This document shows positions 10,282-31,633 of a stretch of 55,452 bases of DNA, piece by piece. How positions within the stretch are numbered: position 1 is the stretch's first letter; the number at the start of each line of letters is the position of its first letter. A model generated the notes under the pieces. The model was given only the letters and a program-made list of their open reading frames with translations, was not told where the DNA came from and searched no databases. This DNA comes from Pseudolactococcus hodotermopsidis. GTDB taxonomy: Bacteria; Bacillota; Bacilli; Lactobacillales; Streptococcaceae. The position numbers and the translations under genes were made by a program. The stretch is taken from positions 1 to 55,452 of the forward strand of contig NZ_BLLI01000007.1 of NCBI RefSeq assembly GCF_011170085.1, read 5' to 3'.

Positions 10282-13200
10282 ATGTATAAATCTGGTATTG
10301 ACGTTGGGTCAACGACTGTAAAAATGGTTGTTTTCGACGAAAATTATGACATGAAATTCTCGCGTTATGAGCGCCATTTTTCTGATGTCAAAACGGCAAC
10401 GATAAAAGTCTTAAATGAGATGATTGCAGAACTTGGGGATATTGAGTTTACGTTTTCAATCACAGGTTCGGGCGGCATGGGGCTGTCTGATGTGATTGGC
10501 GCGACTTTTATCCAAGAAGTGATTGCCTCAACTTTGACCATTGAAAAATTCATTCCACAAACTGATGTGATGATTGAACTTGGTGGCGAAGATGCCAAGA
10601 TGACTTTCTTTGACGGTGCTATGGAGCAGCGGATGAATGGGTCATGTGCTGGTGGAACGGGTGCATTTATTGACCAAATGGCAGAATTACTCAAAGTTGA
10701 CGCGGCGGGTGTCAATGATTTGGCGAAAAATTATGAGAATCTCTATCCAATCGCCAGTCGATGTGGTGTTTTTGCCAAGACCGATGTGCAACCTCTGTTA
10801 AATGAGGGGGTGCGCAAGGAAGATATTGCAGCCAGTATTTTTCAAGCTGTGGTCAATCAAACGGTGGCAGGACTTGCAGCTGGGCGTAAAATAAAAGGCA
10901 ATATTGCGTTCTTGGGTGGTCCGCTGTATTTCATGAGCGAACTGCGCAAACGTTTTATCGAAACACTTGATATTAAACCAGAAAATGTTGTTTTCCCAGA
11001 AAATCCACAACTGTTTGTCGCAATGGGGGCAGCGCTTGATGAGGAAAATGCGACAGAATTTTCAGCCTCTGAAATCATTGCCAAACTTGAACATGATAAT
11101 TCTGATAATCTGATTCCGCAAGATACACTGGAAGTTTTGTTTGCTGATGAAACTGATTTGACTGAGTTCCGAGCGCGGCATGCTAAAGCGTCAGCAGCTC
11201 ATAAAAATTTGGCTGACCACCATGGCGCAGCCTATCTAGGCATTGATGCGGGGTCAACGACGACGAAAGTTGTACTGATTGACGATGAGGGGAATATTTT
11301 ATTTGAGCATTATGGGTCAAATAATGGCGATCCGCTTGATTCGGTGCTAAATGTTATGACCTTTCTCTACAAGGAAATGCCAAGTAATGTTTATATTGCC
11401 AAGTCAGCTGTAACAGGTTATGGCGAGCAGTTGATTAAGGCGGCGCTCAAGGTTGATATTGGCGAAGTTGAGACGATGGCGCATTATAAAGCAGCCGATT
11501 TTTTCCAGCCTGGTGTTGATTTCATCATTGACATTGGCGGACAAGATATGAAAGCGATGAAGATTCATGACGGCGCGCTGTCGAGCATTCAGCTCAATGA
11601 AGCGTGTAGCTCGGGTTGTGGCTCGTTTATCGAAACATTTGCTAAATCGCTGAAGTATGACGTGCGTGATTTTGCCCAAGCGGCACTCTTGACCGAACAT
11701 CCAGTTGACTTGGGCTCAAAATGTACTGTTTTCATGAACTCAAAAGTTAAGCAAGTTCAAAAAGAGGGCGCAACAGTAGGTGATATTTCTGCTGGTTTGT
11801 CTTATTCGGTCATCAAAAACGCCTTGTATAAGGTTATCAAAGTCAAACGTCCCGAAGATTTGGGGACGAAAATCGTTGTGCAAGGCGGGACTTTCTACAA
11901 CGAGGCGGTTTTGCGTGCTTTCGAGAAAATTTCGGGTCGCGAGGTTGTTCGTCCCTCGATTGCTGGTCTTATGGGCGCCTATGGTTGTGCGCTGATTGCG
12001 ATGGAAAATGCGTCAGATGATGCAACGCCGTCTACAATTTTAGCTTTGTCAGACTTGGAACAATTCAAAACGACAAAAGAATTTACAACTTGTGGTTTAT
12101 GTGAGAACATGTGCAAGATGACCTTGACAGTTTTCAATGACGGTTCAAAATTCGTTTCAGGCAATCGCTGTGAACGTGGTGCTGAAAAAGCCATGCAAAT
12201 CAAATTTGACAAACGCGAGAAAAAAGTCAATTTGGTTGATTATAAATATAAAAAACTTTTCAAATTCAAATCACTTTCTAAGAAAAAAGCCATCAATGGC
12301 GAAATCGGTATTCCGCGTGTACTAAACATGTACGAAAATTATCCACTTTGGCATACCATGCTAACTGACCTTGGTTTTCGTGTTGTTTTATCGCCAAAAT
12401 CAGACAAGGAACTTTACGAAAAAGGAATTGAGACCATTCCGTCTGATACGGTATGTTATCCCGCTAAAATTAGTCATGGTCATATCATGGCGCTGATTGA
12501 AAAAGATGTTCCAACGATTTTCTATCCCTCTGTTTTGTACGAACGTCAAGAAGATATGAGTGCGCAAAATCATTATAATTGTCCGATTGTCCAGTCTTAT
12601 CCCGAAGTGATTAAAAATAACATTGATGAGATTCGCAATGGCGATGTGGGCTATATTCATCCTTTCATTAACTTGGCAGATTCGGCTAATATGGCTGATA
12701 ATTTGCACAAGGCGCTGTCGGCTTTCGGTGTGACGTTAGCAGATGTTCAAAAAGCAATCAAACATGGTTTTGAGGAAATGGATGCTTTTAAGCAAGATTT
12801 GCGTGATCAAGCTGAAGATTTGATGATGAAAATCAATCTCAATAATGAAAAGGCGATTGTTTTATCGGGTCGTCCCTATCATCTTGACCCAGAAATCAAT
12901 CATGGGATTGCGGATATTATCACGCAAGAGGGGTTTCACGTGATGACTGAGGATTCGATTGCGCATTTGGCGGAAGTTGGTGGTTTACGCGTTGTCAACC
13001 AATGGGTTTATCACTCAAGGTTGTATGGTGCTGCGCGCGTTGTGGCGAAGAATAAAAATCTTGAACTTGTTCAACTTAACAGTTTTGGTTGCGGGCTTGA
13101 TGCTGTGACAACTGACCAAGTTGAAGAAATCATGCAGGGGCGCAATAAGCTCTATACTGTTTTGAAGATTGACGAGGGCTCAAATATGGGCGCTGTTCGG

Positions 13201-14565
13201 ATTCGTTTGCGGTCGTTGAAAGCTGCGGTCAATGAGCGTGATAAACGCGGTGTGTTACCAAGTGTAGACGAGTCAGACTTTAAGGAAATTATTGCAAGTC
13301 ATCCAGCATTTACCAAGGAGATGAAAAAAACGCACACTTTACTCATGCCGATGCTGTCGCCGATTCATATGGAAGGTTTGATTGACGAGGCCTTCAGACA
13401 ATCTGGCTATAATGTCGTGCTTTTGCCAGAGGATAAGGCGTCGATTAATACAGGGCTGAAATTTGTTAATAATGACTCGTGTTATCCTGCCTTGATTAGT
13501 ATTGGACAGTTGATTCATGCACTTGAGTCAGGCGAATTTGATGTTGATAATACGTCTGTTATGATGACTCAGACTGGTGGTGGTTGTCGAGCGACCAACT
13601 ATATTCCCTTGCTCCGTAAGGCTTTGAAAGATGCTGGTTTTCCGCAAGTCCCTGTCGTATCGCTGTCAATGGGCAACAAGGGGACAGAAAAAGTTGCTGG
13701 CTTTAAGCTGACGGTACCAATGATGACGCGTGTGATTATTGGTGTGCTCTATGGTGATTTATTCGAGCGTGTTGTCTACCGAACACGTCCTTACGAGGTA
13801 ACTGAGGGGCAAATTGATAGTTTACATGCTAAATGGTTAGAAAAAGCAAAACATAATATTAAATCGGGGTCGATTTTTGAGTTTAATCGTAACATGAAAC
13901 AAATTGTTCGAGAATTTGACGAAACACCATTACTTGATTGTCGTAAACCGCGGGTTGGTGTTGTCGGTGAAATTCTTGTCAAATACTCGAAAACGGCGAA
14001 TAATGATATTGTTAGCATTATCGAATCTGAGGGTGCTGAGGCTGTCGTACCTGATCTTATCGGATTTATGAACTACTCGCTCTACAATCAGATTTGGAAA
14101 TCGGAACATCTCGGTATGGGTAAGAAAGGCAAGTATTTTGCGCGTGCTTTCATTAACATTATCCAAATGATTGAAAAACCAATGAATAAGACATTGAAAC
14201 TGTCGAAACGATTTGATGGCATTCACTCGATTGATGCCTTGGCTGCTGACACGCAAAAGGTTATCTCCATTGGTAATCACACGGGCGAGGGGTGGTTCTT
14301 GACAGGTGAAATGATTGAGCTGTTACAGGATAGAGTAGATAATATTGTCTGTCTGCAACCTTTTGGGTGTTTGCCTAACCATATTGTTGGAAAAGGCATG
14401 ATTAAGGAATTGCGTCGTCAATATCCTCGGGCAAATATTGCGCCAATTGACTATGACCCGTCTGTTTCAGTGGTCAATCAGCTCAATCGGATTCGCTTGA
14501 TGATGGCAACTGCTAAAAAACAGATGAAAAAAGATATGGCAATTGAAGAAGTAGTTATGAAATAA
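10282..14565 (+). CDS. Double activase / 2-hydroxyacyl-CoA-dehydratase-like Fe-S protein
   Basis: A 1427-residue fusion of the BadF/HgdC activase family with dehydratase-like (DUF2229) regions. The first ASKHA ATPase domain starts GIDVGSTTVK and has SCAGGTGAF near residue 120. The second starts GIDAGSTTTK near 319 and has ACSSGCGSF near 440. These Cys residues bind the bridging 4Fe-4S cluster in activases. A CGLCENMC...GNRC cluster lies near 602-628, and further conserved Cys motifs (SDTVCYP, SFGCGLD, NDSCYP, GGGCRATN, PFGCLPN) follow to the end. The family couples ATP hydrolysis to low-potential electron transfer. Its substrate in lactic acid bacteria is not known to me. AAGGAAG supports the start. 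Confidence 0.85.
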   Translation: MYKSGIDVGSTTVKMVVFDENYDMKFSRYERHFSDVKTATIKVLNEMIAELGDIEFTFSITGSGGMGLSDVIGATFIQEVIASTLTIEKFIPQTDVMIELGGEDAKMTFFDGAMEQRMNGSCAGGTGAFIDQMAELLKVDAAGVNDLAKNYENLYPIASRCGVFAKTDVQPLLNEGVRKEDIAASIFQAVVNQTVAGLAAGRKIKGNIAFLGGPLYFMSELRKRFIETLDIKPENVVFPENPQLFVAMGAALDEENATEFSASEIIAKLEHDNSDNLIPQDTLEVLFADETDLTEFRARHAKASAAHKNLADHHGAAYLGIDAGSTTTKVVLIDDEGNILFEHYGSNNGDPLDSVLNVMTFLYKEMPSNVYIAKSAVTGYGEQLIKAALKVDIGEVETMAHYKAADFFQPGVDFIIDIGGQDMKAMKIHDGALSSIQLNEACSSGCGSFIETFAKSLKYDVRDFAQAALLTEHPVDLGSKCTVFMNSKVKQVQKEGATVGDISAGLSYSVIKNALYKVIKVKRPEDLGTKIVVQGGTFYNEAVLRAFEKISGREVVRPSIAGLMGAYGCALIAMENASDDATPSTILALSDLEQFKTTKEFTTCGLCENMCKMTLTVFNDGSKFVSGNRCERGAEKAMQIKFDKREKKVNLVDYKYKKLFKFKSLSKKKAINGEIGIPRVLNMYENYPLWHTMLTDLGFRVVLSPKSDKELYEKGIETIPSDTVCYPAKISHGHIMALIEKDVPTIFYPSVLYERQEDMSAQNHYNCPIVQSYPEVIKNNIDEIRNGDVGYIHPFINLADSANMADNLHKALSAFGVTLADVQKAIKHGFEEMDAFKQDLRDQAEDLMMKINLNNEKAIVLSGRPYHLDPEINHGIADIITQEGFHVMTEDSIAHLAEVGGLRVVNQWVYHSRLYGAARVVAKNKNLELVQLNSFGCGLDAVTTDQVEEIMQGRNKLYTVLKIDEGSNMGAVRIRLRSLKAAVNERDKRGVLPSVDESDFKEIIASHPAFTKEMKKTHTLLMPMLSPIHMEGLIDEAFRQSGYNVVLLPEDKASINTGLKFVNNDSCYPALISIGQLIHALESGEFDVDNTSVMMTQTGGGCRATNYIPLLRKALKDAGFPQVPVVSLSMGNKGTEKVAGFKLTVPMMTRVIIGVLYGDLFERVVYRTRPYEVTEGQIDSLHAKWLEKAKHNIKSGSIFEFNRNMKQIVREFDETPLLDCRKPRVGVVGEILVKYSKTANNDIVSIIESEGAEAVVPDLIGFMNYSLYNQIWKSEHLGMGKKGKYFARAFINIIQMIEKPMNKTLKLSKRFDGIHSIDALAADTQKVISIGNHTGEGWFLTGEMIELLQDRVDNIVCLQPFGCLPNHIVGKGMIKELRRQYPRANIAPIDYDPSVSVVNQLNRIRLMMATAKKQMKKDMAIEEVVMK

Positions 14566-15946: not shown

Positions 15947-16561
15947 ATGAAGCTCAAAAAACTTTTACTGGCAGCCGTGTTAGCGTTGGCTGTGTTTATC
16001 GGTCTCGCAGTACCGACTTATGCGGATGGTGCGATTACAGAAACTGAACATCAAATCATTGAAAAACTATCAGCTGGTATCACAGTTGGAGGCAAGACTT
16101 TCCACGTGCCTGGTCAACATATTGCACGAGCAGAAAATCATCTGAAAGGTAATGAATTGACAGACTATCAAATCAATAGTGTTTTGCCGTCTCTTGATGC
16201 GATTACTACTTTGCTTGAGGCGCAAACGATTGATGTTTCTGGTATTGATACCTTGGAAGATTTGATTAGAGCGATGCCTGCTGATGTTCAAGCACAGCTT
16301 AAAAATGATCATTTATCTTTTATCGCTAGTATCTTGGGTTTGACGATTACTTATGGACCAGAGGGAATTTCTATTATTGACAATACGGCTACTGGGAAAA
16401 CAACAATTCCAACACCAGTTGCCTCAAATAACGAGAATGTGGTGAAAAATACAGGTTCTAATTACGTGCCAAGTATCTTAATTTCTCTGCTTACGTTATT
16501 TTCTGTCATCGTGGTTTATACTTTAGGAAAACGAAAAAACTATGTTTCAGCAGCGAAATAA
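15947..16561 (+). CDS. Secreted, cell-wall-anchored protein (sortase substrate) of the eps locus
   Basis: A 204-residue precursor. It has a signal peptide (basic MKLKK, hydrophobic core, likely cleavage near PTYA-DG at residue 26), a helical acidic body, and a C-terminal sorting-signal layout: VKNTGS at residues 166-171, a hydrophobic stretch (about 174-193) and GKRK. The pentapeptide departs from LPxTG but keeps NTG. An adjacent dedicated sortase overlaps its 3' end by 20 bases. The frame is open from 15848, but ATG 15947 follows TTGGAGA and begins the signal peptide. The function is unknown; it may be a wall-linked factor for polymer display. Confidence 0.75.
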   Translation: MKLKKLLLAAVLALAVFIGLAVPTYADGAITETEHQIIEKLSAGITVGGKTFHVPGQHIARAENHLKGNELTDYQINSVLPSLDAITTLLEAQTIDVSGIDTLEDLIRAMPADVQAQLKNDHLSFIASILGLTITYGPEGISIIDNTATGKTTIPTPVASNNENVVKNTGSNYVPSILISLLTLFSVIVVYTLGKRKNYVSAAK

Positions 16562-17228
16562 AGCTCTTTTAAAGAGAGTTGGCATATTTTTTCTCATGCC
16601 AACTCTCTTTTTAATTATTGGTTACTCTCTTATCTTACTTATTATGTCGCCAGTGACTAATATGATAAAGACTTCTGTGGGACTTTTCGTTATGGCAGAA
16701 GAACCCCAATTTGATTTTGATGATATTAAACTCGAAGATGTTAAATTTACCAAAGCAACAGATAAGACAGAGTTAAAGTCAAGTGAGATTAAGTATCCAC
16801 ATCCTGGGGAACTGTATGGTAAGATAGCTGTGCCAGACGTTGGCGTTGATGTCCCCCTATTTTTTGGCGATACTTTAGAAATATTGCGCTATGGTGCAGG
16901 TCAATACATGAGTTCTAAGTTTCCAGGAGAGATTGGTACAACGATTGTTGGCGATCATAATGGTAATCAATTTGGAAAGTTAAATAATGCTGAGATTGGT
17001 ATGCTTGTTAATCTTTCAACAACTTATGGTGAGTACCAGTTTAGGATTATTTCAAAAGATATTAAAAATAAGGATGATGCCATGGTTACTTCCTTGTTGT
17101 TTCAAAAGAAAGAACCTTTACTGTTGCTCTATACTTGTTATCCAATAGACAGTATTGGTCGAACAGATGATCGGATTTTTGTTCAGTGTGAGTATGTGTC
17201 AGGACCGCTTATCAATGAGAACGAATAG
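16542..17228 (+). CDS. Sortase family transpeptidase
   Basis: A 228-residue membrane-anchored sortase. A basic N-terminus (QQRNKALLKR) and a membrane segment (residues 14-36) precede an extracellular catalytic domain. The catalytic triad is visible as His139 (VGDHNGN), Cys199 (LLYTCYPI) and Arg211 (TDDRIFVQ). There is no C-terminal membrane segment, so it is not a classical pilin (class C) enzyme with two anchors; the class is uncertain. It starts inside the 3' end of the surface-protein gene, which is its probable substrate. A strong hairpin lies within its first codons. Confidence 0.85.
   Translation: MFQQRNKALLKRVGIFFLMPTLFLIIGYSLILLIMSPVTNMIKTSVGLFVMAEEPQFDFDDIKLEDVKFTKATDKTELKSSEIKYPHPGELYGKIAVPDVGVDVPLFFGDTLEILRYGAGQYMSSKFPGEIGTTIVGDHNGNQFGKLNNAEIGMLVNLSTTYGEYQFRIISKDIKNKDDAMVTSLLFQKKEPLLLLYTCYPIDSIGRTDDRIFVQCEYVSGPLINENE
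16571..16612 (+). terminator. Hairpin with T run inside the sortase 5' coding region
   Basis: A perfect 15-bp stem (AAAGAGAGTTGGCAT at 16571-16585 with 16596-16610) surrounds a ten-base loop and is followed by Ts. It lies ten bases after the stop of the surface-protein gene but inside codons 11-24 of the sortase. It could terminate most transcripts, making sortase expression depend on readthrough, or it could stabilise the upstream mRNA. Confidence 0.55.
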
Positions 17229-20516: not shown

Positions 20517-21137
20517 ATGGTCAGTTTTTATACAGTTGTTAAACGTTGTTTGGATTTTCTGTTTAGCTTTTTAGGTTTGGTTTTGTTGTCTCCTTTTCTT
20601 TTGATTCTTTATATTTTTGTAAAGTGTTCAGACGTACATTCGCCCGTGTTTTTTTCACATGTTCGCAATGGCGAAAATGGAAAGAAATTTAAGATGTTTA
20701 AATTTCGGACAATGCGTACAGATGCTGAGGCTGTTTTAATGAATGATTTAGCTTTATATGAAGAATTTGTAGCAAATGGCTATAAACTTGAAACAGATAA
20801 AGACCCTCGAATTACTCCGATAGGTCGGATTTTGAGAAAAACAAGTATTGATGAATTACCTCAACTTATTAACGTTCTTTTAGGTCATATGTCTTTAGTT
20901 GGTCCACGACCGCTACCTGATCGTGAAATTCATGAATACGGTGAAGATAAAGATTTGTTTCTAAGTGTTCGTCCTGGTATAACAGGTTGGTGGCAAGTAT
21001 CTGGTAGAAGTAATGTTGGCTATCCTGAACGTTGTGAGCTTGAGCTTTATTATATTGAAAAAGCTAGTATTTCGTTTGATATTTATATTTTATTTAAGAC
21101 GGCTTTGGCTGTATTTAACAGAGTCGGTGCGCATTAA
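20517..21137 (+). CDS. epsD: Priming sugar-phosphate transferase
   Basis: A 206-residue initiating glycosyltransferase that moves a sugar-1-phosphate from a UDP-sugar onto undecaprenyl phosphate. One hydrophobic segment lies at residues 15-37. It is followed by KMFKFRTM, DPRITPIGRILRKTSIDELPQ and GHMSLVGPRPLP, all hallmarks of the WcaJ/PglC catalytic domain. The long multi-spanning N-terminal domain of CpsE-type enzymes is absent, as in lactococcal EpsD. The exact sugar is not predictable. The stop overlaps the next ATG. Confidence 0.9.
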   Translation: MVSFYTVVKRCLDFLFSFLGLVLLSPFLLILYIFVKCSDVHSPVFFSHVRNGENGKKFKMFKFRTMRTDAEAVLMNDLALYEEFVANGYKLETDKDPRITPIGRILRKTSIDELPQLINVLLGHMSLVGPRPLPDREIHEYGEDKDLFLSVRPGITGWWQVSGRSNVGYPERCELELYYIEKASISFDIYILFKTALAVFNRVGAH

Positions 21138-22300
21138 TGATGGAAAAACGAAAAAAAATTTTATTAGTTATTGAAGCGATGAGTGGTGGTGCTGGTCGTC
21201 ATGTTCGAGACTTAGTTTTAAATTTAGAACAGGAAAAATTTGACTTGTTTCTTATTTATTCCACTCAGAGAATTAATTATAACTTTATAGAGAATTTAGC
21301 TGATTTTAATAATTGTGTCACTCTTTTGCCATGTGATTTTCTACTAAGAGAGGTAAATCTAAAAGGTGATATGAATGCTTATCGCTTTGTTTCTAAAAAG
21401 ATAAAAGAAATTAAACCTGATGTTGTACATTGTCATAGTTCTAAAGCGGGAGTTATTGGCAGAATGGCTGCTAAAAGACATCGTGTAAAACGAGTTTTTT
21501 ATACACCGCATGCTTATTCTTTTTTAGCACCAGAATTTGGTATTAAGAAAAAGAAATTATTTATTGCAATTGAAAAATTTTTAAGTCACCACGCAACGAC
21601 AAAAACGTTTTGTGTTTCTAAAGGAGAAAAGCAAGCAGCACTTGATGTTGGCATTGATAAAGCAGAGAAATTTGAAATAATTTATAATGGGCTTCCTGAT
21701 TTACCGCTAGTAGACAAGTCATCTGTTAAAGCACAACTTGGTTTAGATGAAACAGCTATTGTTATTGGTAATAATGCCAGATTATCTGAACAAAAAAATC
21801 CTTTGTTTTTTATGATGATTGCTCAGAAAATGATTGAACAAGATCCTAATTTTCATTTTGTTTGGGCAGGAGAGGGGCAATTATTTCAAAATTGTCAAAC
21901 ATTTATTGAAGAAAAAAAACTAGATGAGAATATTCATTTGCTAGGAAATCGAAATGATAGTGAGTTTATTGTCACAGGTTATGATGTTTTCCTCACAACA
22001 TCACAATATGAGGGCTTACCTTATGCGCCAATTGAAGCTATGCGTGCTAGTGTTCCAATTATTGCGACAGATGTTGTAGGCAATCGTGAAATTGTTAAAA
22101 ATGGTGTAAATGGTTACTTGATTGAATCGGAGTGGTCTGATAATATTATTGAAAAATTAAATCAGGCTTTGACATTGAATCCTCTAGCGGTTAATAAGAA
22201 TTTTAAGGATAGATTTTCTATTGAAACAATGTTAGAGCAAATAGAAACATTTTATTTAGCAGAGCAAATAAAGAGTAGGAGAACATTCGATGAGTATTAG
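21137..22300 (+). CDS. Glycosyltransferase family 4
   Basis: A 387-residue cytoplasmic GT-B transferase. The N-terminal domain has GGAGRHVRDL (donor/acceptor loop). The C-terminal domain contains VWAGEG, LLGNRND and EGLPYAPIEAMRASVPIIATDVVGNREIV, the E-x7-E region of GT4 enzymes. It overlaps epsD by one base and the next gene by 11 bases. It probably adds the second sugar of the repeat unit. A second in-frame ATG at 21140 is an alternative start. Confidence 0.88.
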   Translation: MMEKRKKILLVIEAMSGGAGRHVRDLVLNLEQEKFDLFLIYSTQRINYNFIENLADFNNCVTLLPCDFLLREVNLKGDMNAYRFVSKKIKEIKPDVVHCHSSKAGVIGRMAAKRHRVKRVFYTPHAYSFLAPEFGIKKKKLFIAIEKFLSHHATTKTFCVSKGEKQAALDVGIDKAEKFEIIYNGLPDLPLVDKSSVKAQLGLDETAIVIGNNARLSEQKNPLFFMMIAQKMIEQDPNFHFVWAGEGQLFQNCQTFIEEKKLDENIHLLGNRNDSEFIVTGYDVFLTTSQYEGLPYAPIEAMRASVPIIATDVVGNREIVKNGVNGYLIESEWSDNIIEKLNQALTLNPLAVNKNFKDRFSIETMLEQIETFYLAEQIKSRRTFDEY

Positions 22301-23135
22301 TGATGTGATTAGAAAAATAAGATATGAGTATATTTTAAAAAATAAATTTTTAACTCCCCTTTATACTTTTGCTATTAAGAAATATTGTAATGTACAAGAA
22401 AATAGAATAAACAAGAAAGCTGAACAACGTCAAAATGGTAATATAGTGGGATATGAAGAATTGAAAAATTTGAAAAATAAATTTGAAGGTGAAAGATGCT
22501 TTATTATTGCTACTGGTCCAAGCTTGACGTATGATGATTTGAAAAAAATAGAAAATGAGTATACTTTTGGTATGAACTCACTTGTTTTAGGATACGATGA
22601 CAATGAGTTTCGTCCGACATTTTATGGTATTCAAGATAGGTTTGTTTTTGAAAAAGTGAAAGAAAAACTTATTGAGTATTATGCTAATTCAAAGAATGTT
22701 TTTTTACCAGATACTTTTGATGACAACGATTTTATTTCTAAAAATTGGATAAAATTTCCATATGATACTTACTATCATATGGCTGATTTTCATAAAAAAA
22801 ACTATCATGCTAAATTTAGTGATAATGCACTTTATAAAGTTTACGATGGTTATACAATTACATATTCTTTAGTTGAATTAGCTGTTTATATGGGGTTTAA
22901 AGAAATCATCTTTTTGGGATTTGATTTTGGATATGCCAAAAATAAGAAAAGTCATTTTATTGAGCATGGTGTGGTAGATTCAACAGCCGATGAATTAGGA
23001 AAAAGAATGACAGTTTCATTTGAGGTTGCTAAAAAATATGCGGAACAAAATGGCATCAAAATTTTAAATGCTACTAGAGGTGGGTATTTGGAATTATTTG
23101 AGAGAATTGATTTGGATAGTATGATATTAAAATAA
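22290..23135 (+). CDS. GT42/DUF115-like (sialyltransferase-fold) protein
   Basis: A 281-residue protein. FIIATGPSLTYDDL (about residues 71-84) and TFGMNSLVLGY are followed by YSLVELAVYMGFKEIIFLGFDFGY near the middle. This order (GxGPSL, then a helix leading to a GxDF strand end) matches the fold of CstII-type GT42 sialyltransferases and DUF115/MptE-like proteins. It may therefore be a CMP-sugar-dependent transferase. That would fit the NeuA-like gene downstream, but similarity is from motif memory only. Base composition is AT-rich compared with housekeeping neighbours, as in the rest of the variable eps block. Confidence 0.6.
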   Translation: MSISDVIRKIRYEYILKNKFLTPLYTFAIKKYCNVQENRINKKAEQRQNGNIVGYEELKNLKNKFEGERCFIIATGPSLTYDDLKKIENEYTFGMNSLVLGYDDNEFRPTFYGIQDRFVFEKVKEKLIEYYANSKNVFLPDTFDDNDFISKNWIKFPYDTYYHMADFHKKNYHAKFSDNALYKVYDGYTITYSLVELAVYMGFKEIIFLGFDFGYAKNKKSHFIEHGVVDSTADELGKRMTVSFEVAKKYAEQNGIKILNATRGGYLELFERIDLDSMILK

Positions 23136-23171
23136 TGTATATTTTAACTATAAGGAGTTAGTAATCTAGCA

Positions 23172-24272
23172 ATGAATAACAATTTTAAGTTTAGCAGAAA
23201 TATCATTATGTTTTTATTTGTACCTTTGAGTATTGTTGGAATGATAATTAATAATGTTATGATTGCTCCTGTGCTTCCCATAGAGCGGACAACAGGGTGG
23301 ACTATTTTGCAACTAATGAATGGTTCGTTACCTCCTTGGGCTGTTGATAAAAATTTTAATGGTGCTTCTCAAATAATAAAATTTTTTAATATTTTTCGAT
23401 TAGATAATTATTTTCATTTAAACTTGTATTATAGACTATTTTGTAATGTATTAGCTTTTATTGTCATCTTTAATTTAAAAAAAAAATTAGCCTTTATTGA
23501 GTTTTTTATGATACTCATAACAATACTTTTTTTAAATATTTTTGATTTTTACTTACTAAAAGAACCAGCGGAATTTGTTTTTGTTATGTTAGTTTATCTT
23601 GTTTTAAAAAGTAAATTGAAATTTAAAGAGATTGTTGTTCTATCTTCTGTTATTTTTTTAGGTAATGCTATTCAATTAAGAGCATACTACGGAATATTAG
23701 TTGTTTTTCCATTTATTTATTTTGTGGTTTTAAAATCAAAATACCTAGTAAAATCATCAATAATTAAGAAAATTCTATTTATTTTGTCAATAATGGTAAC
23801 TAGCTATTTAGTAATGTTTCCCTTACTTTCAAGAATCTCTCCTGAATTTTTTGATGTTTTACTTAATAGAACTGGTGAACTTCAATTAGATGCCAATACT
23901 TCAATTCGACCAATTTTTCTATCAACTAACTTTGTATCTATTGGATTGAATTATTTTTTAAAAATTTTAAGGATTTGTTTTCCGATAGAAATAGTGCTTA
24001 AAGGCATAAATCAAATTATTTTCTTTGTTGTTCAATGTACTATTACTTTTTTTACGATAAGAACTTTGAAAAATTTTAAAAATAATAATAAAATTCAAAA
24101 TTATTCTTTGTGTATTGTTTTATCTTTCATCTTTTTATCAGCAATGTTTGAACCAGACTTTGGTTCATGGGTAAGACATGAAATGGTTATGTTTCCAATT
24201 CAATTTTTAGCTTTTGGGTTTGATAAACAAATATATTTAAAATATAATGAAGATGGGAAAATGGAATGTTAA
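23172..24272 (+). CDS. Polysaccharide polymerase-like membrane protein (Wzy/EpsG type)
   Basis: A 366-residue protein that is almost wholly hydrophobic, with about nine to ten membrane segments and a larger loop at residues 36-75 (GWTILQLMNGSLPPWAVDKNF). AAGGAG precedes the ATG. Its composition and its place between transferases and the flippase fit the repeat-unit polymerase. Wzy proteins share little sequence, so the call rests on topology and context. It is very AT-rich. It overlaps the flippase gene by 7 bases. Confidence 0.65.
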   Translation: MNNNFKFSRNIIMFLFVPLSIVGMIINNVMIAPVLPIERTTGWTILQLMNGSLPPWAVDKNFNGASQIIKFFNIFRLDNYFHLNLYYRLFCNVLAFIVIFNLKKKLAFIEFFMILITILFLNIFDFYLLKEPAEFVFVMLVYLVLKSKLKFKEIVVLSSVIFLGNAIQLRAYYGILVVFPFIYFVVLKSKYLVKSSIIKKILFILSIMVTSYLVMFPLLSRISPEFFDVLLNRTGELQLDANTSIRPIFLSTNFVSIGLNYFLKILRICFPIEIVLKGINQIIFFVVQCTITFFTIRTLKNFKNNNKIQNYSLCIVLSFIFLSAMFEPDFGSWVRHEMVMFPIQFLAFGFDKQIYLKYNEDGKMEC

Positions 24273-25519
24273 AATATAAAAACATATTATTAGATATGTT
24301 CTCAAATCTAGTTGCTAATGGTATTTCAGTGGCAGTAATTCAAGTGCTGATCTTTCCGTTTATTGCCTCTAAAGTTGATTCATCTGTATTTGGGATGATA
24401 GTTGCAGTTTATGGCATAAATACCACTTTAACTTTAGTTGCTGGCAATTCAATTGGGATGATGAGGGTTAAACATCAGAGTATCAATGGTGAAAATTTTA
24501 ATCTTATTGCATTTACTGCATCAATAAGTATTGTTATAGTAGCTATGCCATTGTTTTTTATGTATGGAGAAAAGTTGAAGTTAATAGATATTTTAGTTTA
24601 TTTATTGACAACGGGTTTACAATCAATGAGACTCTATTTGAATAATATATTTAGGGTTAAATTTGATTTAAAAAAATATAATATTGTCACTATGCTCAAT
24701 TCTTTTGGTCAATTATTTGGTTTTTTATTGTTTTTATTTTCAAAAAAATGGTCGTATATTTTTCTATTTGGAGAAATATTTAGCTTATGTTATATTTTTT
24801 TAAATTATAATAAAAAGGGAGAAAACTATTCTATCAATGAGAAATTTAAAGAAGTTTTTTCTGAAGTTTTTAATTTCTCCCTTTCGACTCTCTTTATTCA
24901 ATTTGTTGCTAACATGGATAAGTTTATAATTATCCCTATCTTAGGCGCTAAAATATTAGGTCAATATTTTGGCTTAAGTACTGTTGGAAAAATTATACTG
25001 TTCGTTACAGTGCCAGTTAGTAATGTTTTATTTTCCTATATTGCTAAAAGCTCTAAAGAATTTAATAAAAAAAGTGCTGCTATCATGAATGGCGCTGCTA
25101 TCATTGGAAGCTTAATTTTGACATTTCCTTTTTCAATAGTAAGTAAATTTATCTGTTCTTTTTTGTATCCAGAATATGTAAGTTCAAGTAACTCTTTTGT
25201 GTTGATAAATATAATAACTTTTGGAACATTGCTAAGTGTGACATGGAATTTGGTTAATTTGTATTACATTAAGCATTTGTCAATGAAATATCAACGAAAT
25301 AGTCAATTTCTTTTCTGTTCTTTATCTATATTGCTAGCTATAATTTTTTCTAACAAATATGGGGTGATTGGCTATGCTTTATCCCAAGTTATTGTTGGAT
25401 TTTGTAAGTTTTTTATTCAAATCTTGATTTTGTTTTTCTTAAAAAAGCATCTTAAAAATATTAATGGAGGAATAAGTATAAATGAAAGTAGTAGCATTCG
25501 TACCAATAAAAATGAATAA
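24266..25519 (+). CDS. wzx: Polysaccharide repeat-unit flippase (Wzx type)
   Basis: A 417-residue membrane protein with about twelve segments of the MOP/polysaccharide_synt family. The N-terminal NILLDMFSNLVANGISVAVIQVLIFPFI region and later LFIQFVANMDKFIIIPILGA and LGQYFGLSTVGKI fit O-antigen-type flippases. It would move undecaprenyl-linked repeat units outward. Its 3' end overlaps the cytidylyltransferase gene by 38 bases, an unusually long overlap that implies tight coupling. Very AT-rich, typical of transferred polysaccharide genes. Confidence 0.85.
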   Translation: MLKYKNILLDMFSNLVANGISVAVIQVLIFPFIASKVDSSVFGMIVAVYGINTTLTLVAGNSIGMMRVKHQSINGENFNLIAFTASISIVIVAMPLFFMYGEKLKLIDILVYLLTTGLQSMRLYLNNIFRVKFDLKKYNIVTMLNSFGQLFGFLLFLFSKKWSYIFLFGEIFSLCYIFLNYNKKGENYSINEKFKEVFSEVFNFSLSTLFIQFVANMDKFIIIPILGAKILGQYFGLSTVGKIILFVTVPVSNVLFSYIAKSSKEFNKKSAAIMNGAAIIGSLILTFPFSIVSKFICSFLYPEYVSSSNSFVLINIITFGTLLSVTWNLVNLYYIKHLSMKYQRNSQFLFCSLSILLAIIFSNKYGVIGYALSQVIVGFCKFFIQILILFFLKKHLKNINGGISINESSSIRTNKNE

Positions 25520-26144
25520 TGAAAGAGTTCCAGGAAAGAATACGCGTTCTTTTGAAAATGGCGAACCATTGGTAACGCGTATTTTGAATACATTAAGTAA
25601 AGTTACAAATATTGATGAAACTTATGTATATTGTAGTAATTCTGAAATTGAAAATTTTATGCCCTCAACTGCAAAATTTTTAAAGCGTTCTGAAGATTTG
25701 GATCAATCAACAACAAAGATTAACGAGGTAATTTCTTCATTTATCTCAGATGTTGAGGCAGATATTTATGTTTTAGCTCATGCAACTGCTCCTTTTATTA
25801 CAGCTAGTAGCATTGAAAAAGGGGTTAGAGCGGTAAAAAGTGAAAAATATGATTCTTCCTTATCAGTTTTAAAATTGCAAGAATTTTTATGGAAAAATGA
25901 AAAGCCGTTTAATTATTCTTTAGATAGCATTCCACGTACTCAAGATTTAGAACCATTGTATGAAGAAACATCAGGTTTTTATGTTTTTGAAAAACATTTA
26001 GCAAAAAATGAAAATCGTAGGATTGGAAATAAGCCATATCTAGTTGAGGTTTCAAAAATTGAAGCGAGTGATATTGATAATCCGATAGATTTTGATATTG
26101 CTAATGCAATTTATAATCATATTATTTTACCTGAAGAAAAGTAA
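25482..26144 (+). CDS. CMP-sugar (acylneuraminate-type) cytidylyltransferase
   Basis: A 220-residue nucleotidyltransferase of the NeuA/KdsB-like group. The N-terminal nucleotide loop VAFVPIKMNNERVPGKN corresponds to the PARxGSKGxxxKN-type signature, and DIYVLAHATAPF corresponds to the LQPTSPL segment. The C-terminus holds an acidic metal-binding end (ASDIDNPIDFDIA). GGAGG at about 25467-25471 supports the start inside the wzx 3' end. It should form a CMP-activated acidic sugar from CTP. No NeuB or NeuC gene is in the window, so the sugar is unknown. Confidence 0.8.
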   Translation: MKVVAFVPIKMNNERVPGKNTRSFENGEPLVTRILNTLSKVTNIDETYVYCSNSEIENFMPSTAKFLKRSEDLDQSTTKINEVISSFISDVEADIYVLAHATAPFITASSIEKGVRAVKSEKYDSSLSVLKLQEFLWKNEKPFNYSLDSIPRTQDLEPLYEETSGFYVFEKHLAKNENRRIGNKPYLVEVSKIEASDIDNPIDFDIANAIYNHIILPEEK

Positions 26145-26192
26145 TATGATTTAAGTGTAAATACATTGTTTAAAAGATTAGGAGAATCGCGC

Positions 26193-27788
26193 ATGAATAA
26201 TATTTCTATTTTAGATTGTACATTGAGAGACGGTGGTTATGTCAATGGCTGGAATTTTGGCTTTGATAATACTCGGAAAGTAATTAGAGGATTAGTTGCA
26301 TCAGATCTTGATATTATTGAAATTGGCTATTTATCACAGAAAAAGGAACGTAAAATTGGGAAGACAATCTATAATACCTTTCCTGAGATGAATGAAGTGT
26401 TACCAAATGATAGAGGAAATAAAATGTTTGTTGTCATGATAAATTATGGCGAATACAACATAGAAGATATTCCGGAATATGATGGCAGTTCAATTAATGG
26501 AATTCGTATAGTTTTTCACAAAAAAGATATTGAAGGTGCTGCTGAATACTGCAAAATTTTATCAGAAAAAGGTTATAGGGTTTTCTTTCAGCCAATGGTG
26601 GCAATGAGTTTTACAGATGATGAGTTTTTGGAAACGCTGAAGAAAGCAAATGAAATTAAGCCATATGCTTTTTACATTGTAGATAGTTTTGGAGTAATGA
26701 ATCAGCAAGATTTGATGCGTTTTTATTATCTGTCTCATAATAATTTGAAAAAAGAGATTGCTTTAGGCTATCATTCACATAATAATTTGCAACTTGCATA
26801 TTCTAATGCACAATCTTTTGCCACATTAGTAACAGATAGAAATTTGATTTTAGATTCTAGCATCTATGGTATGGGGCGTGGTGCTGGAAATTTAAATACC
26901 GAATTATTTGCACAATTTTTAAATAAAGCCAAAGGTAAAAATTATATTATTGAACCAATTTTAAAGGTTATTGACGAAGTCATTGCTAAAGAACATGAAA
27001 AGAATTTTTGGGGATATTCTTTACCATTTTATATTTCTGCAAAGCATAATGTCCATCCAAACTATGCCTCATATTTAGATGATAAGAATACCTTAACTTT
27101 TGAAGGATTGGATACAATTATTAGTCGTATTGAAGGGGAAAAGAAGAATGGCTTCTATCCAGATTATATAGAGAATCTTTATCTAGCCTATATGAGTGAA
27201 GGAGAAGAAAATGAATATAGAATTAATGAATTAACTGAAAAGTTATCGAATAAATCTGTCTTACTCGTTGGTCCAGGAAAAAGTGCTAAAGAAGAACTTG
27301 ATAAAGTAGAAAAATTTATTTCTGAAAAAGATATAATAATTATTTCAATTAATCATGAATATTCATTGGTGTCAGACTATATATTTTTGAGTAATATTAG
27401 AAGGCTATCTTCTTTATCGAAAAAAGTAGCTGATCGATTGATTGTAACTTCTAATGTACCAGTAAAAGATTTCTTTTTAAAAGTAGATTATGTAAAATTA
27501 TTAAATGAAGTTTCTACTGTTGAAGATAATGCAGGCTTAATGGCTATTCGTTTACTTGAGCGTTTGGGTGTTAAAAGTATTTATCTTGCAGGAATTGATG
27601 GTTATTCAGTGGATGCTAGATTGAATTACGCAGATGAAAATTATATGTTTGAAATGAAACAGAAAGTTCGTCATTTGATGAATGCTGGAATGCAAGCAGT
27701 TATTGATGAATATTCTGAAAAGATTTATTTGGAATTTGTTACTTCATCAAATTTTAAAATTAAGAAAAAAGGTAAAGAAAATGTATAA
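26193..27788 (+). CDS. DRE-TIM aldolase fused to GT42/DUF115-like domain
   Basis: A 531-residue two-domain protein. Residues 4-290 are an HMGL-like (DRE-TIM) aldolase: ILDCTLRDGGYVNGW (7-20), the metal ligands YHSHNN (193-198) and YGMGRGAGNLNTE (225-237). Members make or break carbon-carbon bonds next to a 2-keto acid. Residues 352-531 begin VLLVGPGKSAKEEL and contain LLERLGVKSIYLAGIDGYS, resembling the sialyltransferase/DUF115 fold. The ATG at 26193 has TTAGGAGA upstream; an earlier TTG at 26166 is less likely. It overlaps the HAD gene by 8 bases. I infer a role in making or transferring an unusual keto-sugar. Confidence 0.7.
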   Translation: MNNISILDCTLRDGGYVNGWNFGFDNTRKVIRGLVASDLDIIEIGYLSQKKERKIGKTIYNTFPEMNEVLPNDRGNKMFVVMINYGEYNIEDIPEYDGSSINGIRIVFHKKDIEGAAEYCKILSEKGYRVFFQPMVAMSFTDDEFLETLKKANEIKPYAFYIVDSFGVMNQQDLMRFYYLSHNNLKKEIALGYHSHNNLQLAYSNAQSFATLVTDRNLILDSSIYGMGRGAGNLNTELFAQFLNKAKGKNYIIEPILKVIDEVIAKEHEKNFWGYSLPFYISAKHNVHPNYASYLDDKNTLTFEGLDTIISRIEGEKKNGFYPDYIENLYLAYMSEGEENEYRINELTEKLSNKSVLLVGPGKSAKEELDKVEKFISEKDIIIISINHEYSLVSDYIFLSNIRRLSSLSKKVADRLIVTSNVPVKDFFLKVDYVKLLNEVSTVEDNAGLMAIRLLERLGVKSIYLAGIDGYSVDARLNYADENYMFEMKQKVRHLMNAGMQAVIDEYSEKIYLEFVTSSNFKIKKKGKENV

Positions 27789-28434
27789 GGCAATAATTTG
27801 GGACTTAGATGGCACATTAATTGATACTTCCCTAGGTATTTTTAATTCTGTTCGATATACAGAGCAAAAAATGAATCTAATACCTTTATCTGATGAAAAA
27901 TTAGTTGAATATATTGGACCTAAATTATTGGATTCTTATGTTAAACAATTTTCTTTAAATAAAATTACTGCAGAAAAAGCAGTTGTTTTTCATCGAGAAT
28001 ATGGAAACAAGAAAGGAATCTATGAATCAAAAGTATATCCAGGAATTGCTGAAATTTTAAAGGTTTTACATAAAAAAGGGGTTAAAATGGCAGTAGCAAC
28101 TATGAAGCCAGAAGAAATGGCACTGAAAATTTTAACACATTTTGATTTAGCCCAATATTTTGATGAGATCATTGGTATGGATTCTGAAAATACACGTAAT
28201 AAAAAGATTAATATTGAAATTGCTTTAAATAGAATGGAAGTTATATCAAATGAAACATTAATGATTGGGGACAGTGAACATGATGCAAAAGGAGCAAGTG
28301 ATACAGATGTTGATTTTGTAGCAGTTACTTATGGATTTGGAATGAAGAGTGAAAGAGAAATTTTAGATAGCAAGGCTAAATTTATTATTGAGGGGGCTGA
28401 TGACTTAAATCAACTTCTTACTCTTACATGTTAA
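27781..28434 (+). CDS. HAD superfamily phosphatase (phosphoglycolate-phosphatase-like)
   Basis: A 217-residue HAD hydrolase. Motif I is IIWDLDGTLIDTS (residues 5-17), motif II is AVATMKP and motif IV is MIGDSEHDAKGA. A four-helix cap lies between I and II. The start at 27781 overlaps the preceding stop; upstream in-frame codons belong to the aldolase gene in another frame. In the cassette it could remove a phosphate from a keto-sugar phosphate, as KdsC-like and NanP-like HAD enzymes do in ulosonic acid pathways. That is inference. It is the last gene of the eps block. Confidence 0.82.
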   Translation: MYKAIIWDLDGTLIDTSLGIFNSVRYTEQKMNLIPLSDEKLVEYIGPKLLDSYVKQFSLNKITAEKAVVFHREYGNKKGIYESKVYPGIAEILKVLHKKGVKMAVATMKPEEMALKILTHFDLAQYFDEIIGMDSENTRNKKINIEIALNRMEVISNETLMIGDSEHDAKGASDTDVDFVAVTYGFGMKSEREILDSKAKFIIEGADDLNQLLTLTC

Positions 28435-30118: not shown

Positions 30119-31633
30119 TTGAAAGCAAACAATTTAAGAGTATTTGATAATGAACTTGACGAAGATGTACTTTTAAAATACTTAAAAGTACATGGAATTA
30201 AACTTAAATCAAGTAAAGAAAAAAATAGATTAAAAGAAGAAAAGAACCTTAAAGATGAAATAGCATGCTTAAAATCTTTAGTTTCAAGTATGCCAATTCA
30301 AAATAGTGGAGTAGAATTATCTAATTTTTTTATCGGATTTAATATTCCCCAGATTAATAATGAATTTGATTTATTAAGATTTGGTTCAAATTTTGATATT
30401 AATATTGAATTAAAAGGAAAAAATACAGGAGAAAAGATAGTTACTCAGTTAAAAAAACAAAGACATTATCTTAGCATAAGAGAAAGAGAATTATGGCAAT
30501 TTACTTATGTAAAAGAAGAAAATCAACTTTATGAAACTGATGGCGAAAATTTAATTAAAAGCGATTTTAAAAAATTAATTGAATTATTGGGCAACCAAGA
30601 AATAGAAGAAGAAGTTATCCTAGAGGAAATATTTGAACCTAGCCAATTTCTTATTAGTCCATTTAATACGGCAGATAAATTTTTGAGAGGTACTTATTTT
30701 CTAAATTCGTTACAAGATGAAATTAAAAAGAAAATAATGCAATCACAAGAGAAATATCATGTTGTGACAGGGATTGCTGGTAGTGGAAAAACTTTGCTAG
30801 TTTATGATATAGCCAAAAAATATATGGAAGAAAAGAAAAAAGTTGTCATTATACATGCTGGGAACTTGAATCAAGGACAAAACTTTTTGAACAGCAATGG
30901 GTGGGATATAAAAGCAGCAAAAGAATCTATTTCAGAACAAGATGAGATTGATGTTTTGATTATTGATGAGTCACAAAGACAGTGGGAAGATCAATTTAAT
31001 AAAATAATGGAATTTGAATCTGAAATAATTAAGGATAAAATCATATTATGTGGAGATGATAATCAAATTCTTGCTATGGATGAAGAAAAATTCAATATTT
31101 CTGAGAAAATAAAAAATAAACCAAAGTTTAATCAGCATAAATTAACCAAAAAAGTCAGAACTAATGAAAAAGTTGCTGATTTTATCAAAGGCTTATTTGA
31201 TTTAAAGGATATGAAATCTCTTGATGAGAATAGTATTAATATTGATTATTTTGAAACTAAAGAAGAGGCTAAAAATTATGTTCAATATTTACAAACAGAT
31301 AGTACTTTTTTAGATTATACTCTTCCTCCTCCTGGTGGAAAATATGATTACCCACTATATCGAGATTATCAGCTTATAAGTGCGATACATTTAGGAATTG
31401 TTGCCGAAACTTCTCACGAAGTTATTGGTCAAGAATTTGACAGTGTAACTGTTTGTCTTGGCCCTCATTTTGAGTATAGGAAACATCAGCTGATATTTCC
31501 TGATGATAGAACAAATTATTATTCAGCCTCTAAAATGCTTTTTCAAAATATTACCCGAGCAAGGAAAAAGATAAATCTTATCATTTTTGAAAATGAAAAA
31601 CTGTTAGTAGATATATTAGGAGCAATAAAATGA
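30119..31633 (+). CDS. PD-(D/E)XK-like nuclease fused to DUF2075 helicase domain
   Basis: A 504-residue protein starting at TTG with AAAGGGAA upstream. A charged helical N-terminus (residues 1-60) is followed by NEFDLLRFG and INIELKG (about residues 81-100), which fit the D...ExK active site of PD-(D/E)XK nucleases. The ATPase part has Walker A GIAGSGKT (218-225), Walker B VLIIDES (279-285) and a C-terminal [14 protein letters not shown] helicase end. It is much more AT-rich than aroE and aroB on either side. Its stop overlaps the aroB ATG, so it is cotranscribed with aro genes. A defence or DNA-processing role is likely but unproven. Confidence 0.7.

Follow-up and report, generated by a model that had tools for sequence, protein, structure and literature searches.

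The window, a 55,452-nucleotide stretch of DNA from Pseudolactococcus hodotermopsidis (NCBI RefSeq contig NZ_BLLI01000007.1; contig C7 of a 2.3-Mb genome that is 97% complete), contains an eps locus in which genes for a cytidylyltransferase, a two-domain aldolase fusion, and a HAD phosphatase follow one another. An earlier inspection (the sequence-only reading) suggested that these genes provide a route to a cytidine monophosphate (CMP)-activated keto-sugar in which a pyruvate-type aldolase replaces the usual synthase, and that one or both of two GT42-like domains, one of them fused to the aldolase, transfer the product. The four genes it named are present as it described them (Table 1), only the "GT42" label for residues 352–531 of the fusion being weak. 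Having compared related loci, we consider it probable, if well short of certain, that the three genes form a dedicated CMP-ulosonic acid cassette within a Wzy-type eps locus, with the aldolase in the place of NeuB or KdsA.

The eps genes run in the order GT4, 22290 protein (named by its start position), two hydrophobic proteins, cytidylyltransferase, aldolase fusion, and HAD protein; Wzz, BY-kinase-like, and CpsB-like genes are also present, besides that of the initiating transferase. The stop codon of the cytidylyltransferase gene is separated by 48 bases from the fusion ATG (26193), which is preceded by AGGAG; the open reading frame (ORF) caller itself starts the fusion at a TTG (26166). The start of the HAD gene (27781) overlaps the fusion stop (27788) by 8 bases.

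Table 1. Features of the eps locus, in window coordinates
Feature	Position	Strand	Basis
Aldolase fusion, 531 amino acids: DRE-TIM class II aldolase (residues 1 to ~340) plus MptE/DUF115-superfamily C-terminal domain (residues ~346–531)	26193..27788	+	Pfam HMGL-like, AlphaFold2
C-terminal domain of the fusion, putative binder of a nucleotide-sugar or sugar-acid ligand (inferred)	27228..27785	+	hhalign, Pfam, conservation
NeuA/PseF-like CMP-sugar cytidylyltransferase, 220 amino acids	25482..26144	+	PF02348, 63.6 bits
HAD phosphatase, 217 amino acids, phosphoglycolate-phosphatase-like	27781..28434	+	HAD_2, 117.7 bits
MptE/DUF115-GT42-fold protein, 281 amino acids, candidate CMP-sugar transferase	22290..23135	+	PF01973, 59 bits
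GT4-type glycosyltransferase	21137..22300	+	Glycos_transf_1, 103 bits
Initiating sugar-phosphate transferase	20517..21137	+	Bac_transf, 216 bits
Probable polymerase	23172..24272	+	Inferred from hydrophobic sequence and place; no Pfam match at E 0.1
Probable flippase	24266..25519	+	Inferred from hydrophobic sequence and place; no Pfam match at E 0.1

The N-terminal part of the fusion (residues 4–247) matches the HMGL-like family PF00682 with 67 bits. In an AlphaFold2 model of the whole fusion (predicted local distance difference test [pLDDT] score, 92.9), the aldolase part superimposes on BVU_2661 (PDB entry 3dxi; Z 30.9, 2.2 Å over 290 residues, identity 27%) and on DmpG (1nvm; Z 28.6, 3.5 Å over 323 residues). 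BVU_2661, a putative aldolase with which it has the LRDGGY motif in common, is its closest solved relative; the 3dxi entry spans the N-terminal domain only, and its product is called putative. The likeness to DmpG/BphI consists of a TIM barrel and an Arg/Asp plus HxH metal site, R12/D13 and H194/H196 of the fusion aligning with TLRDG and HAHHN of 1nvm. These four residues are identical in all 70 aligned sequences, so that loss of the metal ligands, which the sequence-only reading had singled out beforehand as damaging to it, was not seen. Besides the window, the alignment has sequences from 69 of the 80 loci described below; it leaves out stand-alone aldolases (L040, L061, L068, L088), triple fusions (L052, L056, L064, L099), proteins cut by contig ends (L049, L050, L065), and L002–L004. 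The TIGR03217 equivalog for 4-hydroxy-2-oxovalerate aldolase was not reached (70.4 bits against a cut-off of 286). DmpG/BphI also have a C-terminal domain of another kind, and no acetaldehyde dehydrogenase was found among the eps genes scanned. Judged by family, the aldolase part is a metal-dependent aldolase other than a 4-hydroxy-2-oxovalerate aldolase, and its kinship suggests that pyruvate would be the donor.

A scan of genome contigs confirmed at least 548 relatives, of which the best 80 were kept; with the window, L002, L003, and L004, these make 84 loci. The fusion is not peculiar to this genome, since 76 of these loci have the C-terminal domain. Of the remaining eight, six are stand-alone aldolases (L003, L004, L040, L061, L068, L088), and L049 and L065 are truncated by contig ends. 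Among 147 family genomes, the fusion was found only in G000 and G010 and a stand-alone relative in G040 and G057; the other 23 matches were weak, none exceeding 26 bits. G010 (L002; fusion identity 76%) has the order cytidylyltransferase-fusion-HAD as well, as do Gottfriedia, Lederbergia, Robertmurraya, and Niameybacter, and an alphaproteobacterial (Leisingera) plasmid has the order aldolase (536 amino acids)-"Kdo cytidylyltransferase"-HAD (Kdo, 3-deoxy-D-manno-octulosonic acid). Such recurrence argues that the arrangement is not due to chance. Tree labels include Bacillota, Melainabacteria, Bacteroidota, and Campylobacterota, together with one metagenome-assembled genome each of Spirochaetota, Elusimicrobiota, and Pseudomonadota. 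Single metagenome-assembled genomes may be contaminated; the Leisingera plasmid with its three genes makes the occurrence in Pseudomonadota firm. In the literature searched, whose reach excluded subscription papers and preprints, no description of the fusion or the cassette was found among the matches listed, as judged by title and the start of the abstract.

The 25482 protein scores well above the PF02348 cut-off of 22.6 bits and is the best of three PF02348 matches in its genome (the others score 27.9 and 24.1 bits). Its PDB matches include the NeuA structures 9t4z and 1qwj, and it does not reach the PseF equivalog TIGR03584 (58.1 versus 205.7 bits). A search with two seeds, one NeuA-type and one KdsB-type, found a cytidylyltransferase adjacent or fused to the aldolase in 70 of the 84 loci (34 KdsB-type and 32 NeuA-type within 150 bp, and 4 fused). 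Among the 930 remaining ORFs of these loci, 85 have one as near; this background spans both strands and includes unverified ORFs and so makes the contrast generous. Labels for cytidylyltransferases, HAD proteins, and other locus members came from hidden Markov models grown from window or L003 seeds, which miss other enzyme types. Linkage goes as far as fusion in three Campylobacterota loci (L052, L064, L099), where a single chain of 763–768 amino acids comprises aldolase, C-terminal domain, and KdsB and is each time followed by HAD; L056, also from Campylobacterota, is the same triple fusion cut by a contig end. In the triple fusion, the C-terminal domain sits between aldolase and cytidylyltransferase. 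L036, sister of the triple-fused L056, has a separate NeuA-type gene instead.

NeuA-type and KdsB-type partners fall into two separate clades of a FastTree phylogeny (one change, support 100), which carries a long-branch warning for L077. On the aldolase tree, which came from a short search and has 28 of 81 inner branches below 80 support, partner type switches at least 14 times, with 9 switches forced by branches of support 95 or more. Shuffling of the partner labels gave a mean of 23.5 changes, and none of 500 shuffles was as low as 14, which indicates that partners are also inherited. NeuA- and KdsB-type enzymes have in common the activation of 2-keto sugar acids. The repeated exchange of one for the other is thus best explained if the aldolase makes a sugar acid that both families would activate.

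The CMP-activated 2-keto-3-deoxy sugars known so far depend on NeuB or KdsA, which consume phosphoenolpyruvate (PEP), and genome surveys seek those genes. The P. hodotermopsidis genome gave no match to NeuB (PF03102) or KdsA (TIGR01362); a neuB or pseI homologue elsewhere, another of the findings that the sequence-only reading had set against itself, was thus looked for in this genome and not found, and the same holds for kdsA. We extended the search to 25 related genomes selected by us, all with an adjacent cytidylyltransferase at the locus. KdsA exceeded its cut-off (314) in none of the 25, strong NeuB was found in 6, and 19 are without both by these score limits; genome completeness varies (78% for G010), so that absence is not proof. 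In two non-overlapping and likewise selected sets, NeuB reached at least 155 bits in 8 of 22 and 4 of 23 genomes.

Together, these data suggest the following model. Pyruvate, bound to the divalent metal of the aldolase domain, would be joined by this domain to an aldose phosphate supplied by central metabolism, so that a 2-keto-3-deoxy-ulosonate phosphate would form with no need for PEP; the HAD protein would then remove the phosphate, the NeuA-like 25482 enzyme would make the CMP-sugar, and the GT42/Maf-like 22290 protein would move the sugar into the repeat unit. The cassette resembles the NeuB-NeuA, PseI-PseF, and KdsA-KdsC-KdsB systems (for CMP-sialic acid, CMP-pseudaminic acid, and CMP-Kdo) in the cytidylyltransferase family, the phosphatase, use for a surface polysaccharide, and, by our interpretation, sugar-acid logic. 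It differs from them in having a DRE-TIM aldolase with an extra domain and no NeuB/KdsA match, and in a HAD protein of the phosphoglycolate-phosphatase-like kind. Should the model hold, CMP-ulosonate biosynthesis would have a widespread variant in this cassette. More tentatively, and at somewhat less than even odds in our estimate, it may represent a third, PEP-independent kind of ulosonate synthase, in which a DRE-TIM pyruvate aldolase with an MptE/DUF115-like domain (and KdsB in some Campylobacterota) converts aldose phosphates of central metabolism into CMP-3-deoxy-ulosonic acids in about seven phyla; sialic- or Kdo-type sugars would thus be possible in many bacteria without NeuB/KdsA, Gram-positives included. 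Surveys would then have missed such sugars in numerous genomes of Gram-positives, Campylobacterota, and Melainabacteria, the ulosonic acid produced might be of a shorter or unfamiliar kind, and the three-gene unit (or the triple fusion plus a phosphatase) would be a simple route to a CMP-sugar.

The 22290 protein has PF01973 as its sole family above cut-off and no PF06002 match at E 0.1. Its AlphaFold2 model (pLDDT 80) resembles Maf (5mu5; Z 15.3, 3.2 Å over 195 residues), HPPK (8sd5; Z 11.4, 2.9 Å over 161 residues), and CstII (1ro8; Z 11.1, 3.9 Å over 171 residues). HPPK, TPK, and SteA have the same fold, and because it is also that of HPPK, the fold does not decide function. Sequence profiles give E 9.4e-5 against 5mu5 and 1.4e-4 against CstII, and the 22290 family aligns with GT42 by hhalign at 95.6%. 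In the family alignment, which adds to the window 17 of the 20 relatives detected (the longer, more distant L046, L073, and L090 were left out), 11 of 18 sequences have H222. The HH of Maf aligns there; the hhalign alignment with GT42 does not pair H222 with the GT42 histidine, the catalytic residue before the last helix. Relatives of the 22290 protein occur in 21 of the 84 loci, the window included, and 16 loci encode a relative, scoring over 200 bits, of a polysialyltransferase-like protein (PF07388, as judged from a Pfam comparison of the L075 member alone); both kinds of protein are candidate users of the CMP-sugar. Fold and profiles make the 22290 protein a credible GT42-like CMP-sugar transferase, and a better candidate than the fused C-terminal domain, even though kinases have the same fold.

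The C-terminal domain appears to be a remote relative of the MptE/DUF115 superfamily. In the window protein it scores 17–18 bits against Pfam MptE-like, below the cut-off of 34.6; 14 of the 70 fusion members match at E up to 1 (best E 4.5e-4), and hmmsearch against the PDB gave only weak matches to SteA (E 0.081) and HPPK (E 0.42). That it is a working GT42-type transferase, so that one chain makes and transfers the sugar, would accord with its distant relationship to the 22290 family (hhalign 95%, P 4.5e-8), whose fold resembles Maf/Cst, and with its strong conservation: all 70 sequences have R404, N421, and D469, and 66–68 of them N387, N401, N446, Y479, and T517. We nevertheless consider this distinctly unlikely. 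Comparison with GT42 (PF06002) by hhalign gave 6.6%, the GT42 side being two sequences only; in no alignment column does His reach 30% of the 70 rows; and HPPK, TPK, and SteA also share the 22290 fold. Four genomes (G040, G057, L040, and L068) retain the aldolase, in three of them still beside a cytidylyltransferase, and gave no match to the domain, and its place in the triple fusion is between the two enzymes of synthesis and activation. Profile comparison and histidine counts thus left the GT42 label without support. Structure searches with the whole fusion returned, among the best 50 rows each, only TIM-barrel superfamily chains for the aldolase part, where absence of GT42 is uninformative. 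The conserved residues point to a functional pocket, probably for a pathway ligand, and with moderate to low confidence we place the domain at the synthesis end, where it would hold substrate, intermediate, or CMP-product. The idea that an aldolase replaces the synthase has gained comparative support (linkage, triple fusion, partner exchange, lack of a NeuB/KdsA match, and metal site), whereas transfer by the fused domain has not.

Several observations weigh against the proposed cassette. The linkage contrast is generous not only in its background: the 80 loci were kept as those that match the window's own family best. NeuB exceeds the Pfam cut-off (22.1) in 20 of 22 and 16 of 23 related genomes, and the KdsA profile matches at E 0.001 in 22 of 25, with 21–144 bits. 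The weak NeuB matches score about 24–44 bits and extend over only a portion of the profile, and several genomes have a single gene matched by both; we did not count such matches as NeuB or KdsA and read them as probable DAHP synthases. NeuB lies within the locus in 6 of 84 cases; four of these loci have a second cytidylyltransferase, which fits two separate sugars, and in the remaining pair (L052, L065) a contig end truncates the locus. Residue Y16, which follows LRDG and is invariant in 70 of 70 sequences, occupies the place of a DmpG histidine three residues after the metal Asp, presumably the base, so that chemistry or substrate may differ from those of 4-hydroxy-2-oxovalerate aldolases. 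The consulted part of a paper on BphI/DmpG (PMC3962088) names no histidine base. HAD has the same position in L002–L004 as in the window, but lies within 900 bp of the aldolase in only 38 of 84 loci, and the phosphate step may therefore not be general; for the 77 loci away from contig ends, it accompanies 22 of 32 KdsB-type, 11 of 30 NeuA-type, 3 of 3 fused, and 1 of 12 partnerless aldolases. Lastly, only Leisingera among five more distant plasmid relatives (24–37% identity) has all three genes; those of Desulfobaculum, Priestia, Paraburkholderia, and Legionella have no cytidylyltransferase among the genes listed, which implies other uses in the wider family. On the Desulfobaculum plasmid (L101, 6001–7014), a 37% identical stand-alone aldolase lies beside RfbH and split transketolase genes and is possibly involved in branched-sugar synthesis.

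Y16, this distant relative with its rfbH and transketolase halves, and the many aldolases without a nearby HAD gene would all suit an enzyme that extends or branches another sugar, free or nucleotide-bound, whose product is not a 2-keto-3-deoxy acid, while the cytidylyltransferase activates something else. We regard this as rather unlikely, since each adjacent cytidylyltransferase found by the two-seed search groups with either NeuA or KdsB, four Campylobacterota loci have one of these types fused to the aldolase, and the metal site is as in pyruvate aldolases. That aldolase and cytidylyltransferase serve unrelated steps and merely share the eps locus is very improbable: 14 of 84 aldolases do lack an adjacent cytidylyltransferase, a further point against a dedicated cassette (two of these loci are cut by a contig end), but adjacency or fusion in the other 70, well above background, the single-chain fusion, and the repeated replacement by the other partner type beside the aldolase all speak against it. 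In the 11 genomes of those 14 loci that were searched, a PF02348 match was found elsewhere in every case, at only 28.7 bits for L037. Phosphonate pathways contain both HMGL-like enzymes and CMP-phosphonates, and the cytidylyltransferase could on that ground activate a phosphonate and the HMGL-like enzyme handle a phosphono-acid. This we dismissed as extremely improbable because no PEP mutase (PF13714) match was found in the P. hodotermopsidis genome, while control searches matched in 11 of 14 genomes; moreover, the cytidylyltransferase is closest to NeuA/PseF. A CMP-ulosonic acid cassette thus remains the interpretation that we prefer.

L061 and L088, together with L033, L037, L066, and L080, form an aldolase clade without adjacent cytidylyltransferase, which may have another role. 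Acyltransferase genes lie near the L033 and L037 aldolases, and the L061 and L088 genomes contain further open frames (546 and 521 amino acids, respectively) that have the C-terminal domain and lie near a PF02348 gene.

The genes between 22290 and 28434 have a guanine-cytosine (GC) content of 24–29%, compared with 36.3% for the window. Because of this low GC and its rarity among the 147 family genomes, the block was probably acquired. Scans of promoters and terminators gave counts near chance (74 promoter-like sites versus 65.4, standard deviation 6.7; 5 terminator-like sites versus 4.6, standard deviation 2.5). Beyond the block, a 27% GC gene (30119–31633) for a 504-amino-acid SLFN-g3/SF1 helicase-like protein lies between the shikimate genes aroE (29249) and that for 3-dehydroquinate synthase (31630); it resembles an insertion and is perhaps defence-related. 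Shortly upstream of the eps genes, a sortase gene (16542–17228) is flanked by genes for the 15848 and 17281 proteins, which have no Pfam match at E 0.001. Further upstream, positions 10282–14565 encode a 1427-amino-acid BadF/BadG plus DUF2229 protein of the coenzyme A-enzyme activase type.

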